A stretch of DNA of 64,000 nt from Labia minor (lineage: Eukaryota > Arthropoda > Insecta > Dermaptera > Spongiphoridae), in contig OY720346.1 of the NCBI GenBank assembly GCA_963082975.1, positions 36,359,787 through 36,423,786 of the forward strand, read 5' to 3'. Below the pieces are notes generated by a model. That model worked only from the letters and a program-made list of their open reading frames with translations. It made no database searches and had not been told where the DNA came from. Positions within the stretch are counted from its first letter, which is position 1. Each line of letters starts with the position of its first letter. Below, one piece after another: positions 8,949 to 40,800 of the stretch. The translations under genes were made by a program, and so were the position numbers.

Positions 8949-11900
8949 TTATAAAAAAATTCCCTTTATTTTTTTATTTCTTTTCTTTGAATGAAAATAA
9001 AAAATTTCACAAATGAAAATAATTATCGAGAATATAACACCACCGAGAAAAATTACTAATGGCAACAAAATAATATTGATGGTAATCGATGTAAATTTAT
9101 CTTCCTTTGATGTTTCATAGATTGATTCCAAATATTTGGCCTTTATATAATCCAATACACCAAAATTACGAATTTGAATTATTCTAAAAAAATATAGATA
9201 TGTAGAGGATAAAGGGTATATTTTTACAGAAATTCAATATTACTTGTTTACATCTTAAAATGTATATGTGCCGGTCAGAAGCCAAACCGATTAACTCCAA
9301 TTTTTAAAATTTTGCTAATAATGTAATGTAATGTAATCTGCAACATATGAAGTGAATAATGAACTTGATAATCTTAATATTGCAAAGCAATATACATTTT
9401 TCTGTAATCAATAATCCTGAATTTCATACAAGCTGTGAACTTTGGGCTTCATTTTCTCATTTTGTTTATATGTGGAGTTAATCGTTTTGGCTGCTGAGTG
9501 GCACAAATATACAAAATAGAATATTTTAAATATAATGTATTTCTTGATTGTTATTACTTACTTGTAATTTATTAATCGTTTATATGGTGAATTTTTAGAA
9601 ATAATTGATGTTAAATATATTGATTCTTTATTAAGTGGAAAATTTATTATATTATTATCTTTAAATCGAAAAAAAAATTTCCCTAATGAGTATAACGCAA
9701 TAAATGCATAATTCGCTTTTTCGAGTACCATTTGAAGACCTTCTTCATTTCCTGGACGAATATTTTCAATTGGTTTTATAAAAGTTTTAAATAATTTTTG
9801 CATTAAAGGAATTCGGCTTAACTAAAAAAATATTGTTCTAAGAATTTATTAAAAATAAAATCAATTTTTTGTTAAAAAAAAAATTAAAAAAAAATTGTAA
9901 AAAACTACAAAGTATATTTACTAACTCGAATGCGGTCCTTTACGGATGAAACTTTAGAAATTTGTATTGTAAAGCTTTCAAAATTCATCAATCCTTCTAA
10001 ATCATTAAATGCATATAAATCAGGAGAATTAATTAAATGAGAAATGATACATCCCGAATAGAATATATAAATAACAATGAAAAAAAATAATTGAAGGATT
10101 AAGGTAATTTGAACACTTAAATCTCTTCGTAAATAGATGCGCTGACTTGAACCTAAAAATACATATTATCAGATGTAGTTTTTAAATAATATATTTTAAT
10201 ATTTAATTAATTAATTTAAAATTATTATCATAATTAATACTATTATATTTATTATAATTGATCAATGACCCGAGGAGACGAGACTAGGGGAGACCAGGGA
10301 ATAGCGAAGACTGCATAACAAGGAATTGCATAACCTCTATGAATCTCCAGAATTAGTTAGGTTTATAAAATCGAGAAGGCAGTGATGGGCATGGCACATG
10401 ACTAGAATGGCAAAACATATATTGATGGGGAAACCGATTGGGAAACTTCCGTTTGGAAGACCAAGGACGCGTTATGTGGACAATGTAGGAGGGACGTGAG
10501 ACAGATGGAAGAGTTCTCAAAACCCAAGAACCCTATATATGTGGGATATTAATTTTAATAGGTCTATGTGTATGCTTCAATTTGTATATATATTGGAACA
10601 AAAAAGTTTCCGGAATTTCTAAATAAAACGCAAAATAGTTCATCTTTTTCAATATTTATTTAGTTTTCTTCAAAATATGCCCCTTCTAAAGCAAAACACA
10701 TATGCCAGATTCTTCCACTCTTCGAAACATTTTTTTACGGGATGTCATCCAGCTCTCTCGTCGCATTCTGTATTATGGTCGGTTTGGAGTCCAAACGGGT
10801 TCCCCGGAGTGGCAATTTTAGTTTTGGAAAGAGGAAAAAGTCACACCAGTGTTTTGTATTAAATGCCTTCACAATCGTGGCTCGATGAAATGGCGCGTTA
10901 TCGTCGTGCAAAATCCACTAAGTTTCTGCCCATAATTCCGGCTGAACACGACGGACCTGTTCACGCAAACGCCTCAAAACATTCACATAATACTCCTTAT
11001 TGGCCGTTTGTCTCTCTGGAACGTATTCATGATGCACCACATCACGAATATCAACAAAAACAATGAGCATCACCTTCCGGAAACATTTTTGTCACAATGT
11101 ATGTGTGTCTTGTGGTAATTATAAATGTAATTAGAGAGGTACTATATAAATTTAATAATAGGTTGTCAAATATCTCCCTTCCGCCTTTTTCGCGGCTATG
11201 TACAAAGCGCTACAGAGCTCGTATCTGGTAATACTATACAGCATTTGAAAGGTCTTGACATAACCTACAAAACGACGCTATGCATGATTAGTTTGGATAT
11301 TGCGTTTAACAGTTATAGACGAGTAAACATGGAGTTCACTAAAGCCGAAATTCGCGTTATTTTAAAGTTTCCCTTCGTTAAAGGCAAATCCGCTAGGGAA
11401 ACGTTGCGTGAGATTAATGGTGTTTTGGGGGATGATATTTTATCACTTCGAACCGCGGAGGAATGGTTTCGACGATTCAGAGCCGGTGAAAACGACACCA
11501 TGGTGTTTGGTGGGATTGGAAGGGAATCATCCACTATGAGATGCTCCCATATGGCCAGACGCTTAATTCTATCATCTACTGCGAACAACTGGACCGCTTG
11601 AAGCAGGCGATCGACCAGAAGCGTCCAGAATTGGCCAACAGGAAGGGTGTAGTGTTCCACCAGGACAACGCCAGACCACACACTTCGTTGATGACTCGTC
11701 AGAAGCTACGGGAGCTCGGATGGGAGGATTTATCACATCCACCATATAGCCTGGACATAGCGCCAAGTAATTACCACCTGATCCTGTCCATGGCGAACGC
11801 CCTTGGTGGTGTAAAGTTAGACTCAAAAAAGGCTTGTGAAAAGTGGCTGTCCGAGTTCTTCGCAAATAAGGAAGGGGGTTTCTATGAGGGGGGTATTATG

Positions 11901-13841
11901 AAGTTGCCGTCTAGATGGAAACAGATTATCGAACAAAACGGCGCATATTTGAACTAAATCCGATCACTGTAACACTTTTTATAAAGCATTGAATAAAGAG
12001 CAAAAAAGCGGAAGGGAGAAATTTGACAACCTTATATTTATTTATATCAAAAATAATCATTAAGAAATTTGAAAATAAAAAAAAAAATTATAATACTTGC
12101 CTTGAAGAGAGAATTTGCCCATAGTATAATATAAAGATTCCAAATAAAAATGAATTTTATTTAATATATATTCTGGTGAAGATTTCAAATAAGAAAGTAT
12201 GCAGTCCCATGTTGTGAATAAGAATACAAATAATAAAATTAATAGCCAAATGGAAATATCAAACGGACTGATAAATGGTGCCCAATTCGATTGATTAATT
12301 TTAGGAATTTCACCCTTGCGAAGGAACACCATAAATCTAAAAAGGAAAAAGTACATTTATTAGTTTATATTATATATCATATAAATTCAGATTTTTTTTT
12401 TATTAAATTTAATAATTCATCTTTTAAATGTGACTCTCCACTAAATATTAATCTTTTTATTACTAACAAGTATACAAATATTGTGTATTTATTTTAATTA
12501 TTCCATTATTATTAATTATTAAACTGGTCAACAGTGGTTTTGGTACCAAAGATTTTGGACGTGATTTTATATGAATTTGATGCCCTGAATTCAAATATGC
12601 CATTAGTTTTTGTCTATCAGCCCGAATTTTTAAGATATCAAAATTTTAGTAAATTATACATTACACTGTTTTAAAAGAAAAACCATGGTTTAAACAAACA
12701 AATTAAACAGGGAAATTTTATTATATTACATAAATATTACTTATTAATACAAAAGAAAACAGAAAAACTCATCATTTAAACCAATTAATCACCGAACATT
12801 TCGGAAACTTCTTTTGCGTGACATTCTTGAACGTATTTTGGAACAATCCCGTTTTAAAGTCCAGCAGTAATCTGCCATCATGTGAGTATCCCATCTTCCT
12901 TGATAGCAATCTTCGATACATTTTATATCTTGGTGAAGGTCACTTCAGATAGTGGACAGACATCTCCATCTATCGGATTTCTATGGAACTAACTGGATGG
13001 CACTAATAAGTAGGATTAAATCCTACTTATTAATAGTTTGTTAACCAATCAGTTATATATCTCATACTGTTAGTCTTCTTTTTATAATAAATTAATTAAA
13101 ATAATAATTAGTTATTTCATAAATATTATTATTTTAAATTCAATTGATTACAAAAGAAGACTGACAATAGGGCAAACATATAAGAATCTATCCTTATATA
13201 AATTTTACAACATTCATACTAGAAAATATTAAATAGAAAAACGCATTGATAGATAAGTGAATTTATCTAAAAATCTAGAGCTGATACAGAAACACTGCTT
13301 TCATATTTAGATACAACAATAAAAATATAGTTAAAATCTGCTCTAAAATCCTAGGCACCAAAAAAAAATTTTTTTTTGTAGGCCTGTGTTATTGATCAAT
13401 CTACATTTTAAATTTAATAAATAAAAAAATCAGATAATAAATTATAACAAGTTAAGACTCCCAAGAATAATTAACTTTTTTATTCAAATGAAATTATTGA
13501 TAAAAAAAAATGATTAAAACAAAAGATACTAATCCTAATAGTGCGTGCAACTTGAGATTATTTCGTCCCCAATTCCCGTATGTTTTTCTGTTAATTAATT
13601 ATTCATTATAATTTAATGTCAATTTTAGATTTTGAAATATTTTAATAATCGACTAAATTAAATATTTAGTAATAAAAAATATTTTCATTTGATAAATGAC
13701 TTGGAGAATCTTTTGAAATAGTACATACATTTATATTTAATAAAACAATAAACAATAACTTATTTATTTATTCTCATATACTTTATAATCAAATTTGAGA
13801 TCACAGCCGTAGCAAGATATTTTATAGCTCTCGGCTTTTCG

Positions 13842-34987: not shown

Positions 34988-36720
34988 TTAATTTATTATA
35001 AATAAATCTTATCTTATTATACTAGCAAAAATTGTATATATTAGTATAAGGTAATGGCACCTATAGATGACATGGCACCTATAGATGACACTTTTGAATT
35101 TAAACTAAAAAAATAAGCAAATTTTAAAACATACGCGGAAATTTTTTTTTTTAAATGATAGTTATGCTTTTCCACCACCTGAGATATCCTACAACAATAC
35201 AATAAGTCGCCCTATTTTTTTTCTTTTAACTTGAAAAGCAGACCGAATCGTCAACAATTGATTTTTTCAACAAATCTTAAAGATAACCTTAAGGTAACTA
35301 ATGTTCTTAATTAGTATTTTATGTTTTTATTTTCATATTTATCAATAATTTAATAACTACATTATAAAATAGACTTAATATAGATATAAATCACTTCAAT
35401 TTAAACACCTAATTTTTAAAAGTATCTTTTTTATCAACCGTGTCATCTATAGGTGCCCCTAAAAATTGTTTTTCCTATAGATGACAGCAATGTCAGCTAT
35501 AAGTAGGTTTTTAAAAAAATTGTCTATTATATTAATAGCTGTAAAGAGGAGATAATTTTATATAATTCCACCAAGTTGCATGTCTGAATTGATATAGGAA
35601 CCTAAAGGTGACGCTGTGTTTCTCATTGTCGGAAAATTTTTTTCTGTTCCAGAACTTCATACACTATTTTTTTGAAATTTTTTTTAAATTACTCTGTTCT
35701 CAATGTATAATTAAAAATGCATAATTAAAAAAAAGATTTGTTTAAAATCAATTTTTTATTTTATTATAATAATCAGCTAAAAATAAAATCAATCCCAATA
35801 AATATATCTAATGTATCATTATATGAAACCTGATTTTTTTATTATAACTAAAGTTAAATCAGCAACAAGGTGTTGGAAAGATGTTTTACTTTGTAAATAA
35901 ATAAGTTGAAGATAAAGAGAGCAAGCGAAGTGAAAAAAAGTAGATGTCATCTTTGGGTTCCATAATTGTCATCATTAGGTTCCACCAAAATTTTTGGTGT
36001 CATCTATAGGTTCCATTTGATTACTTTAAAAAAAAATTATATTTCCTATTAAACTCATATAAAAGATTAAAATATTTATCCTGGTGATAAAAGGTAAGAT
36101 AAGCTTTATAATAACCAAAAGATTTTTTTTGTGAGACGTATAGTTTCGGTTTTATAAAAGAAAATAGCGACAAGAGCGCTTAAAATGTCATCTATTGGTG
36201 CCATTACCTTATATATATATATATATATATATATTTGTATATTTTTGAGTTATTAAACCGCTCGATGCATTTTTTTGAAATTCACACCATATTTATAAAG
36301 AAAAATCGATGTGTATTAGTTTCAGCCTAGAGAAAAATGACGTCACAAATGACGTCATCAATATTGAAATTTTCCTCTTGCCATTCTTTTTTTATTGATA
36401 TTGTATTAATATTTTCTTTATATTTAAAATATTTTAAAATTTTTTACTTAATTTCAAAATAAAATTAAAAATATTTATTTTAATAATATTTTAGAATCAA
36501 TATAAGAAATAGTATATTTATTAATCTTTCACCAAAAAAAATCTAAAATTTATCTTATTTGTCTTGCAAACATTCTTTTTAATCTGTTTTGTTGTTTAAT
36601 TTTTTGTTAATTCTTATAAATTTTTATTTAGATAGTTTTATAATTTTTAATATTTTTTCACTAAAATATTGTTTATTATTTATTATTATTATTCGACGTC
36701 GAGGTACCATATATTATGAT
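34988..36720 (-). repeat. Hairpin repeat (family H) 3' half, split by an inserted element
   Basis: 34988-35040 reads CTTATCTTATTATACTAGCA then AAAATTGTATATA, the family H terminus in minus orientation. The family continues at about 36236 with TTGAGTTATTAAACCGCTCG, TTTGAAATTCACACCATATT, two TGACGTCA motifs (36338-36345 and 36350-36357), ATTGAAATTTTCCTCTTGCC and AATTTCAAAATAAAATTAAA, to about 36720. The interruption is the terminal-inverted-repeat element at 35045-36213. This H copy is older than the 17.7- and 31.5-kb arms. Confidence 0.75.
35045..36213. mobile_element. TIR element with iterated GTCATCTATAGGTKCC motif
   Basis: The left TIR (35045-35072) TATAAGGTAATGGCACCTAT+AGATGACA matches the reverse complement of 36186-36213 with one difference in 28. 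The target is an AT dinucleotide run of a family H repeat, consistent with TA or TATA duplication. The motif CCTATAGATGACA occurs twice in tandem at the left end (35060-35072, 35078-35090), inverted at 35441-35453, direct at 35474-35486, and in variants near 35491, 35601, 35945, 35967, 35999 and at the right TIR. No transposase frame was seen, so it is non-autonomous. I do not recognise the family. Confidence 0.85.
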
Positions 36721-37873: not shown

Positions 37874-40800
37874 TTATAACCAAGATACAAGTGCATCGAC
37901 ACCTAAATCTTTAAGTTCTTTTATTCCTTCTCTGGTAACAATTTCGCCAGATCTTCTCACCACAATTAATTTGGGAATTGCAGTAATTTGGTATCTAAAA
38001 AAAAATATACAAATATCGTTAACATTTATAAATAAATTAATTATTTTGAAAATAATTTATTTTAAATTTTGTTTGTATTTTGTGTCAGGAATTGATTCTT
38101 TGGTGATATCAAGTTCCAAAGGATTATAATATGGTGAATGGGAAAGAATTCAGTATTAAAGTAATTCAATTGGTGAGACTATGATTTGATTTCTTTTTAT
38201 AAGATGATACGAGTATGATTACTCCATCGACTTAATTTTAGTAAGTTTTTTTTTATCTTTGAGAGAGAAAGAATTAGAATGTGATTAATTTCTTCTCTCT
38301 TTTCTCTCAATCAAGAAATTAAATTTCTCATTTACTAAAAATGTATGAATCAGTTTTTCTTTTTTTTTTCTTTATGAATGAATTCATTAGAATTTAAATC
38401 TTTTCACACAGGCATTGGCAACTCAATTATTAAAACCTCTTCTTTTATCAAATAATGAAGTTTCCTGTGGAATTAAGAGGTGTGTTGAAAACAAACCGTT
38501 TTTCATAGGTCATGGGATTGAATATACTACATCAAAATATTATCTAGATAGATAACTCTATTCTAATCTATTCTATTTGAAATAAAATTTTTTAAGAAAT
38601 CGTTAGTAAAAAATAAGTTTTTTTTTTTGTTGAGGATTAATCGACTATAGTGTTATTGTATTTCTGTGATTTGCAATTTCTTAAATTAACGTCATTCTAA
38701 TATTATTCCGTGAGTTCTCACGGCAGAGCATGGGTAATTATGGAAGAAGAAAGATTGAGTGATTAATTACTCTTCGACTAATTGAGAGACAAAAGAGCAT
38801 GTTATCAATTAAATGGATTCTTAACATTTTTATTAGAATTGATCATGATCCTATGTTATGTTGATACTCGTATATTCAGGATATTGATGGAAAATAATCT
38901 TAATTATTTTTTTAATTTGTCATTTGCGTGACTTCCATTTCATTTTAATCATTGATTAAAAAAGAATAATAAAGAAATTGATCACAAACAAAAGGATGAT
39001 TGATTTTTGTATCTAAGGTTTTTGCAAGATTTCATAAAATTAATTACTTATCATAAAGTAGAGGTTCTCAAACTTTTTAAAGTTGATACCACCTACATCT
39101 CACTTCAAAAAGTTCAAGTACCAATAATTATATTACTAAAGGTAAATGTTGTGGTCAGGTTATAAGGAACCAGTATATATTCTATATATATGATATAAAA
39201 AAGTAAATTAATCCTATAAATATCGTATATTGTTTTCAATATTATTTTAAAATAATTATCAATTAATTAATTAATTATGTTATTATTCATGATTTATGTA
39301 TGATGTCAAAAAAAAATATCAATTGGTTAGATTATCTTAATAGATTCTGAGAGATTTGATTTGAAAAGTGAGTTTTAAAGAGAAAACTGGTAGCTATATA
39401 GATAAAAAAAATAATAAATCATATTTTACTTTTACTTTGAATAAAGTGATTTGTCTGGAAAGTTAATAAATATCTTGAAATGCACGTGGAATAATTAATA
39501 AATCTAAATAAAATATTAATTCAAAGAGATCTCTCTGCCAGCTTTAATCTTTATCTGAGGGAAAGGGCTGGCCCATTCCAAAAATAAAATATTGAAGGTA
39601 CAAAATTACAAATAATAAATTACTTTTTTTTGTAAGAAATTGACAAAATCAGTGGTGTATTGGGAGGGGAACGACGTTCCCTTACCTTTTTACTATCTCG
39701 CCAGATTGCGCCGTATTGCGATCACGAAAATTTTCGATGTCGAGATTTTGATGTTTTTATACGTTTTGTAGGTTCCTGAATCATTTTCACTAAGGTTGAG
39801 AAAAATGTCTGTCTGTGTGTGTGTGTGTATTTGTGTGTGTATGTAAACAAGATTACGCAAAAACGGTTTGAGCTAGAATAATGATATTATTATACGGGAA
39901 TTATTCAAATTCGTAGTTTTCTATCAACTTTTGAGAAATGTAGCTCAACCGGAAGAGGGTCATTAGGTCATTACCCACAACGTTTTGATTTTTTTTCCTC
40001 TAAAGTGACCGTAAAAATAAAGATATATGTTTGATAGTTTTTCATATGATTAAAAATTGTATAAAACTGCTATATATAGAATTTCAGCTTGATTGAATCG
40101 CTGAAAGTACCGGAATTATTTTTTTAAATTTTGACTTAAAAATGAAGGTAAAGGTTTTTTTACGTTGAAAAAAATCAAAACAATGTGGAGTAGAGACACT
40201 CCAGCTTTTTTCAGAACCGGTACGCGTTCCAGTACTTTTTCATGTCCCGACAACTCCCACTTAAATCTACTATTAGAATTTCTTTTTTGTGTTCGTAAAT
40301 ATTTTGTATAGTAAGAATAAGAAAAAATAAAAACTTATATGGAAAAAATAGTTTGCAGAAAATAGGACTTTTTTTGCTCCCACTAAGCGTTACCTTACTT
40401 CTTATTTTACCAATACATCACTGTACAAAATGTATATATTTTACATTAGAATAATGGGGAAAAATTAAATGAAATATTGACATAGTATTAAATGCTATGA
40501 CATTGTAGAAAATACCTATATTTAAGTTCAAGTACCAAATTGGCTCCATAAGGGACGCTATACCATCCTTTGGTGAGGCGAAGGAGGTTAGTCGTCCAAT
40601 CTTCTTTTGTATCTTCCATTGACACAAGAATAAAAATGGCAGGAATTTTAGCCTTTTCACATAAATTTTGAAGTCGATATAATTCACAAATAACACTTCG
40701 AGAGTGATGACACCTAGATATGAAATATTTTCTTAATTCAAAATTTAAATAATAACACCCATTACTAAAATATTTTAAATATTGTACTTTATTTAATATT

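Follow-up and report, generated by a model that had tools for sequence, protein, structure and literature searches.

A noncoding stretch of the Labia minor genome repeats one short word about ten times within little more than a kilobase, between terminal inverted repeats (TIRs) that contain the same word. What kind of element is this, from what did it arise, and what might so many copies of part of its own ends be for? We address these questions for the copy in the window, by which we mean the whole stretch of 64,000 nucleotides that was analysed.

Extent and parts of the element

The element, a member of what we call family A, is 1161 bp long and has TA on both sides (Table 1). An earlier note, made from the letters of the window, had placed a transposon-like element at 35045..36213; the element is real, but its ends lie slightly inside these bounds, at 35049 and 36209. 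Its TIRs (AGGTAATGGCACCWATAGATGACAT) are 25 bp long with a single mismatch. The 28 bases previously assigned to them were slightly too many, because the inverted match at the element ends extends over 39 nt (90%) and takes in the TA-rich flanks; a (TA)n run adjoins the window copy.

No frame of 110 or more codons overlaps the element, which agrees with its earlier description as lacking coding sequence, except that comparison with the parent described below reveals a 14-codon relic of the 3′ end of a transposase gene. Elsewhere in the window, two overlapping frames at 11131-11957 resemble a broken mariner transposase.

The recurring word coincides with the TIR interior. Specifically, the 17-bp motif GGCACCTATAGATGACA is matched at 12 or more of its 17 positions by ten distinct sites, four in plus and six in minus orientation, located at positions 9, 27, 394, 423, 444, 550, 898, 920, 951 and 1139 of the family A MITE. 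At the same threshold, 100 dinucleotide shuffles yield a mean of 0.06 sites and never more than one, so the earlier count of about ten copies was accurate. A looser scan returns 16 raw matches (mean 0.42 and maximum 2 in 200 shuffles), some of which are counted twice because the motif is nearly palindromic.

Table 1. Features of the family A element, in window coordinates.
Feature	Position	Strand	Basis
Left TA of target site	35047..35048		Flank ends and single-TA empty sites
5′ TIR, AGGTAATGGCACCTATAGATGACAT	35049..35073	+	Sequence, inverted match
Family A non-autonomous (MITE-type) pogo element, 1161 bp, AGGTAATGG...CCATTACCT	35049..36209	+	Copies, ends, consensus, parent
Motif site 1, within 5′ TIR	35056..35072	+	Motif scans
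Motif site 2, tandem, 18 bp on from site 1	35074..35090	+	Motif scans
Motif site 3	35441..35457	-	Motif scans
Motif site 4, TTTTCCTATAGATGACA	35470..35486	+	Motif scans
Motif site 5, CCTACTTATAGCTGACA	35491..35507	-	Motif scans
Motif site 6, GGAACCTAAAGGTGACG	35597..35613	+	Motif scans
Deletion junction, parent 606 joined near 2803 (L115 coordinates)	35621..35630		Parent alignment
Transposase 3′-end relic, GKFFSVPELHTLFF-stop (parent: RKFFSVPELETLFF-stop)	35631..35675	+	Read against parent
Motif site 7	35945..35961	-	Motif scans
Motif site 8	35967..35983	-	Motif scans
Motif site 9, 188 bp from 3′ TIR site	35998..36014	-	Motif scans
3′ TIR, contains motif site 10 (36186-36202)	36185..36209	-	Sequence, inverted match, motif scan
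Right TA	36210..36211		Flank ends, empty sites

Copies and target sites in the genome

A search of the Labia minor genome (604 Mb in 71 contigs) finds the element at at least 40 places with 97-100% identity, the window's own included (40 of 529 candidates were scored), and at 36 of these 40 the match covers the whole or nearly the whole element. The copies listed are spread over seven contigs and have differing flanks. Matches to the TIR with up to three mismatches number 604 + 626 genome-wide, compared with none for a reversed-pattern control; as each element has two ends, we estimate that there are about 600 elements. The earlier note would have taken a lack of further copies with the same ends as evidence against a transposon family; such copies exist, and this objection does not arise.

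The divergence of 38 aligned copies, the window copy among them, from their own consensus ranges from 0.26 to 3.15%. Over 1163 bp, three copies (L009, L010 and L011) do not differ from the window copy at all, and a fourth differs by 3 mismatches; identity of this kind suggests very recent movement. One A copy (L080) is itself interrupted at about 980-1395 by an insertion, CAGTGATTCTCAACC...GGTTGAGAAACACTG, with an 8-bp duplication of CATTAGAT, which we take to be hAT-like.

Among the 39 loci retrieved (L009-L047), element ends could be located in 37. T is the last base of the left flank at all 37, and A is the first base of the right flank at 36 (L046 is the exception). Empty sites, which the earlier note had suggested as a check, were sought by joining the flanks of 49 copies by script and comparing the products with the fetched loci. 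At L022, L034 and L037 the joined flanks each match several paralogous copies, cleanly and with one TA at the junction. All three of these clear insertions fall within one dispersed repeat family; window positions 39647-40423 are occupied by this dispersed repeat, whose members elsewhere were hit by the three A copies and provided the empty sites. Most of the 77 flank alignments that cross a junction were set aside, being either simple AT repeats or divergent at that point, and a comparison of the L015 and L098 flanks gave no fit. The MITE thus has a TA target, at which the sequence would look alike whether TA was duplicated or the element simply inserted between T and A.

A parent element with an open transposase frame

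Several transposase groups were considered as the source of family A and rejected. No A ends lie within about 1.5 kb on each side (3.1-3.5 kb) of PIF/Harbinger transposases (PF13359) at the 30 of 48 places scanned, at any of the six PF13613 places scanned (6/6), or around eight Tc1-like DDE_3 representatives over 2.2-2.6 kb (150 of 1371 candidates scored). For mariner (PF01359), places were compared by eye only with partial TIR lists (150 of 5668 scored). Two observations on these groups stand on their own. The PF13359 elements at L048-L061 form groups of near-identical copies with ends AATGGGGT...CCCCATT and no evident duplication in the copies examined, and the DDE_3 transposase frame at L104, 378 codons long and preceded by an Arg_repressor match, has by far the best score among the 150 of 1371 candidates scored.

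Variants of the TIR were examined as well. A perfect TIR followed by an altered next base occurs at ten sites, and all nine that were read are altered A copies (C1:97980766 was left out). The TIR tip with a different interior occurs at seven sites, versus one in the reversed control; three are A variants and four have other interiors, among them L097, where neither a second end nor the motif is present and the match may be due to chance. A pattern that excludes the A interior finds 74 sites, about 50 of which carry the TIR of a sister family, B (TAAGGTAATGGCACCTATAGCG). Family B contains an 83-codon relic ending in FSVPELEKLK, the counterpart of the relic in the window element (Table 1). Searching the genome with 81 relic residues gives at least 107 matches (150 of 220 candidates scored); those listed include open frames of two lengths, 735 codons (five frames) and 745 codons (four frames). 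The parent was recognised from a 735-codon frame situated 2.6 kb away from a perfect A TIR, itself one of the TIR matches counted above.

Spanning 3336 bp (L115:37-3372), this parent is bounded by A ends and flanked by TA, and from its first ATG a frame of 726 residues is open. Full-length open frames with 99-100% identity occur at five places; ends were read for one of the five, and all statements on parent DNA concern this single copy. Positions 1-574 of the A consensus correspond to L115 37-606 (95.3%) and positions 583-1163 to L115 2803-3372 (92.0%), so that loss of about 2.2 kb of coding DNA from the parent accounts for the window element. Family A shares its ends with an autonomous-type element and has no transposase frame of its own, as a MITE does. 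The longer, transposase-coding copy that had been envisaged earlier is therefore present in the genome.

The predicted transposase (P0001) matches the Pfam domain DDE_1 (PF03184) at 4.1e-17, above the curated cut-off. Two helix-turn-helix (HTH) domains score just above theirs: HTH_psq (PF05225; 1.1e-4, 22.3 bits versus 20.4) and HTH_Tnp_Tc5 (PF03221; 1.3e-4, 22.3 bits versus 22.2). Residues D174, D285 and D321, picked by eye, make up a DD35D triad with 35 residues between the last two. P0001 thus combines a DDE_1 catalytic domain, a DDD triad within the DD29-56D range and N-terminal HTH domains. Judged by the sequence of this predicted transposase, the parent of the window element is a member of the pogo superfamily, and a family that was initially unrecognised can be placed. 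Structure models are poor, with mean pLDDT values of 58.5 and 36.9, and no fold match reached E <=0.001.

When all of L115 is scanned with up to 4 mismatches in 16, motif sites turn up only in its noncoding parts, and at 12/17 the noncoding ends hold 11 own-motif sites. Seven are upstream of the ATG if the TIR pair is counted (five beyond the pair), and three inner sites are downstream of the stop codon, besides the TIR site. The earlier impression that copies lie throughout the element is correct for the window element but not for the parent, whose sites occupy only two subterminal stretches. The array seems to run throughout the window element because the deletion of about 2.2 kb joined the two subterminal arrays; nearly the whole site array was retained.

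Array spacing and repeated word in three families

In family B (examples L112 and L113, with B turned round), the motif is found at 9, 26, 393, 422, 444, 542, 563, 926, 948, 979 and 1169, and all of these sites score 10-17/17. The genome search with the relic revealed no long open frame of B's own. The 81-aa relic of B is found in full length at 44 places with 98-100% identity, which marks this family as young. The 745-codon frames define a third family, E, which occupies four places; its TIR is TAGGGTAAAGGTACTAGTGTTTGGCAAT, and CTAGTGTTTGGCA is repeated in the noncoding ends. For E, the sequence comes from both ends of a single copy (L116 and L117); here, in contrast to A, an intron seems to separate the first coding part from the rest.

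Each family repeats its own TIR word. At 12/17, own-motif sites number 10 in the A MITE, 11 in the A parent ends, 9 in B and 12 in E, versus at most two in shuffles. The A and B words have no sites in E, and the E word has none in A and B. Nevertheless, the spacing of sites is partly held in common while the words differ. Consecutive 5′ steps are 18, 367, 29, 21, 102 and 22 bp in the A parent, and 18, 356, 29, 22, 22, 22 and 22 bp in E. Counting back from the 3′ TIR site, the steps are 188, 31 and 22 bp in A, 190, 31 and 22 bp in B, and 188 and 42 bp in E, where a site of opposite orientation follows. In helical terms, 21-22 bp is close to two turns and 31 bp to three.

The A parent and E have five consecutive steps in common in both spacing and orientation (within 1 bp; 18, 29, 21/22, 22 and 188), two of which are one and the same step of 21-22 bp; the window MITE and E have four. 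When the inner sites of E are placed at random (n=20000), none of the placements reaches five shared steps and the mean is 0.35. A stricter control that keeps the periodic run of E as a block (n=20000) likewise gives none at five, with 3 at four and a mean of 0.53; for these comparisons, site lists, thresholds and A/B site pairs were set after the sequences had been seen. At the same threshold A and B share 4 steps, and B and E share 1, counts that are low because two B sites score 10-11.

The change of word is best followed between A and B. Across 11 position-matched site pairs, differences fall at motif position 12 in 10 pairs and at position 13 in 9, whereas each of the other 15 positions differs at 0 to 6 of the 11, which amounts to a change from GATGAC to GCGGAC. 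Because the places are kept and positions 12 and 13 have switched at nearly all pairs, the word has changed in concert between the two families. The single long A/B stretch that can be aligned, at the 3′ end, is identical at 53/68 motif positions and 109/198 spacer positions. The A and E ends align no better than shuffles do. Global gapped identities (motif 0.76-0.85, spacer 0.73-0.79, shuffles 0.78-0.79) are uninformative in such AT-rich DNA, and only their A/E null was used.

We tentatively propose, while rating it as slightly short of probable, that this pogo lineage carries a conserved nucleoprotein scaffold with some ten predicted transposase-binding sites in both subterminal stretches, that their spacings and orientations have been partly kept (18, 29, 21-22 and 188-190 bp), and that the word has changed in concert at nearly all sites, from A to B and to the wholly different CTAGTGTTTGGCA in E.

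Origin of the element and role of the array

Taken as a whole, the following account is in our view highly probable: the window element is a young deletion derivative of the parent which would move in trans into TA, its motif is probably bound by the transposase, and the inner sites may aid pairing. An internal deletion in a 3.3-kb pogo-superfamily transposon created a coding-free, recently mobile element, while a parent with an open frame persists in the genome. The parent transposase would act in trans, such that the element is cut and pasted into TA. This protein, in which one HTH domain of psq type and one of Tc5/CENP-B type are predicted, probably binds the 17-bp motif once per TIR, a second time 18 bp inside the 5′ TIR, and otherwise at the subterminal sites. 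The inner sites might load extra transposase and help to pair the ends, or they might govern how active the element is; restraint of pairing, as in piggyBat (PMC11707139), is another possible role. The simplest interpretation is transposase binding, since the word is that of the TIR interior, it is specific to each family, and the parent protein has two predicted HTH domains. On these grounds the array probably consists of transposase-binding sites, as the earlier note had plausibly suggested. Mobilisation in trans and the role of the inner sites are likewise inferred.

The inner sites might instead be operators, at which the transposase or a host factor represses or drives the transposase gene, and which the MITE simply inherited. 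The seven parent sites upstream of the ATG, TIR pair included, would suit such a role, whereas the three inner sites 3′ of the stop would not, and steps on that side are held in common (188, 31 and 22 bp in A, 190, 31 and 22 bp in B, 188 bp in E). Repetition of its own TIR word in each family also speaks against operators, and we regard this explanation as unlikely. The array might also be functionless, a product of repeated exchange between TIR and interior by gap repair or template switching, homogenised by conversion. Rearranged copies do occur, one with a terminus fused at an inner site (L094) and one with an extra 254-bp 5′ end (L092). However, conversion alone does not predict steps shared by A and E, whose ends align at the level of shuffles, and the alignable A/B stretch is better matched in motif than in spacer; we judge a functionless array to be quite improbable. 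Exchange between motif sites, as in L094 and L092, might also allow a new word to spread.

The two other alternatives can be given almost no credence. A local satellite or TA-rich structure might be suspected from the (TA)n run beside the window copy, but the listed copies occupy seven contigs with differing flanks, empty sites exist, and the parent encodes a transposase. Membership of PIF/Harbinger, ISL2EU or Spy (PHIS) would be compatible with a bare T/A site, as Spy inserts without duplication, and PF13359 elements are present in this genome. Nonetheless, a DDE_Tnp_4 transposase with matching ends is absent from the 30 of 48 PF13359 places scanned, the 6/6 PF13613 places also lack A ends, and the parent encodes DDE_1.

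Comparison with known systems

As described in the main text of Gao et al. (2020; PMC7386202), pogo elements have a TA duplication, TIRs of up to 40 bp and a total length of 1.2-5.2 kb, and encode transposases of 300-977 aa with DNA-binding and DDE parts and a DD29-56D triad. The A parent resembles them in its TA, short TIRs, 726-aa transposase, DD35D triad and total of 3.3 kb. Its placement is at the level of the superfamily, from domains (the pogo families are Passer, Tigger, pogoR, Lemi, Mover and Fot). The main text of that paper uses none of the terms 'subterminal', 'binding site' and 'direct repeat', and 'subterminal' is likewise absent from the main texts of PMC7325037 and PMC8472432. 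Occurrences of the TIR string GGTAATGGCACC in the literature are unrelated, judging by titles and the beginnings of abstracts, and a search that included GGTAATGGC and 'subterminal', and covered few papers from subscription journals, found no description of family-specific pogo arrays with conserved geometry.

Pogo-derived MITEs are already known, and the transposon in the window is an ordinary young pogo MITE. What looks new, within this limited literature search, is the conservation of array geometry across a change of word. If our tentative proposal is true, transpososome geometry would be older than DNA specificity, and specificity could be rewritten at all sites together. One genome offers a young MITE family, an open parent and two relatives with similar geometry and different words, and hence a natural experiment on the purpose of inner transposase sites and on the joint change of specificity in a protein and ten scattered sites.

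A counterpart to family A is Emigrant of Arabidopsis, one of the MITEs that Feschotte and Mouches reportedly traced in 2000 to a pogo-like transposon, Lemi; family A likewise consists of MITEs derived from a pogo-like transposon. We know of no comparable site array in the Arabidopsis pogo-like MITEs. Drosophila pogo has a repeated 12-bp word at its ends that is bound by the transposase, and it shares a repeated word at the ends with family A. CENP-B, a pogo-derived protein, binds the 17-bp CENP-B box with two HTH domains; family A also has a 17-bp word and two HTH domains, here predicted. Unlike family A, CENP-B is a domesticated centromere protein with sites in satellite DNA. The arrays of family A further resemble those of piggyBac, piggyBat and Tol2, in which binding words are repeated inside the ends. 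According to PMC11707139, these repeated subterminal words aid transposition or, in piggyBat, restrain it; unlike family A, all three belong to other superfamilies and use other target sites.
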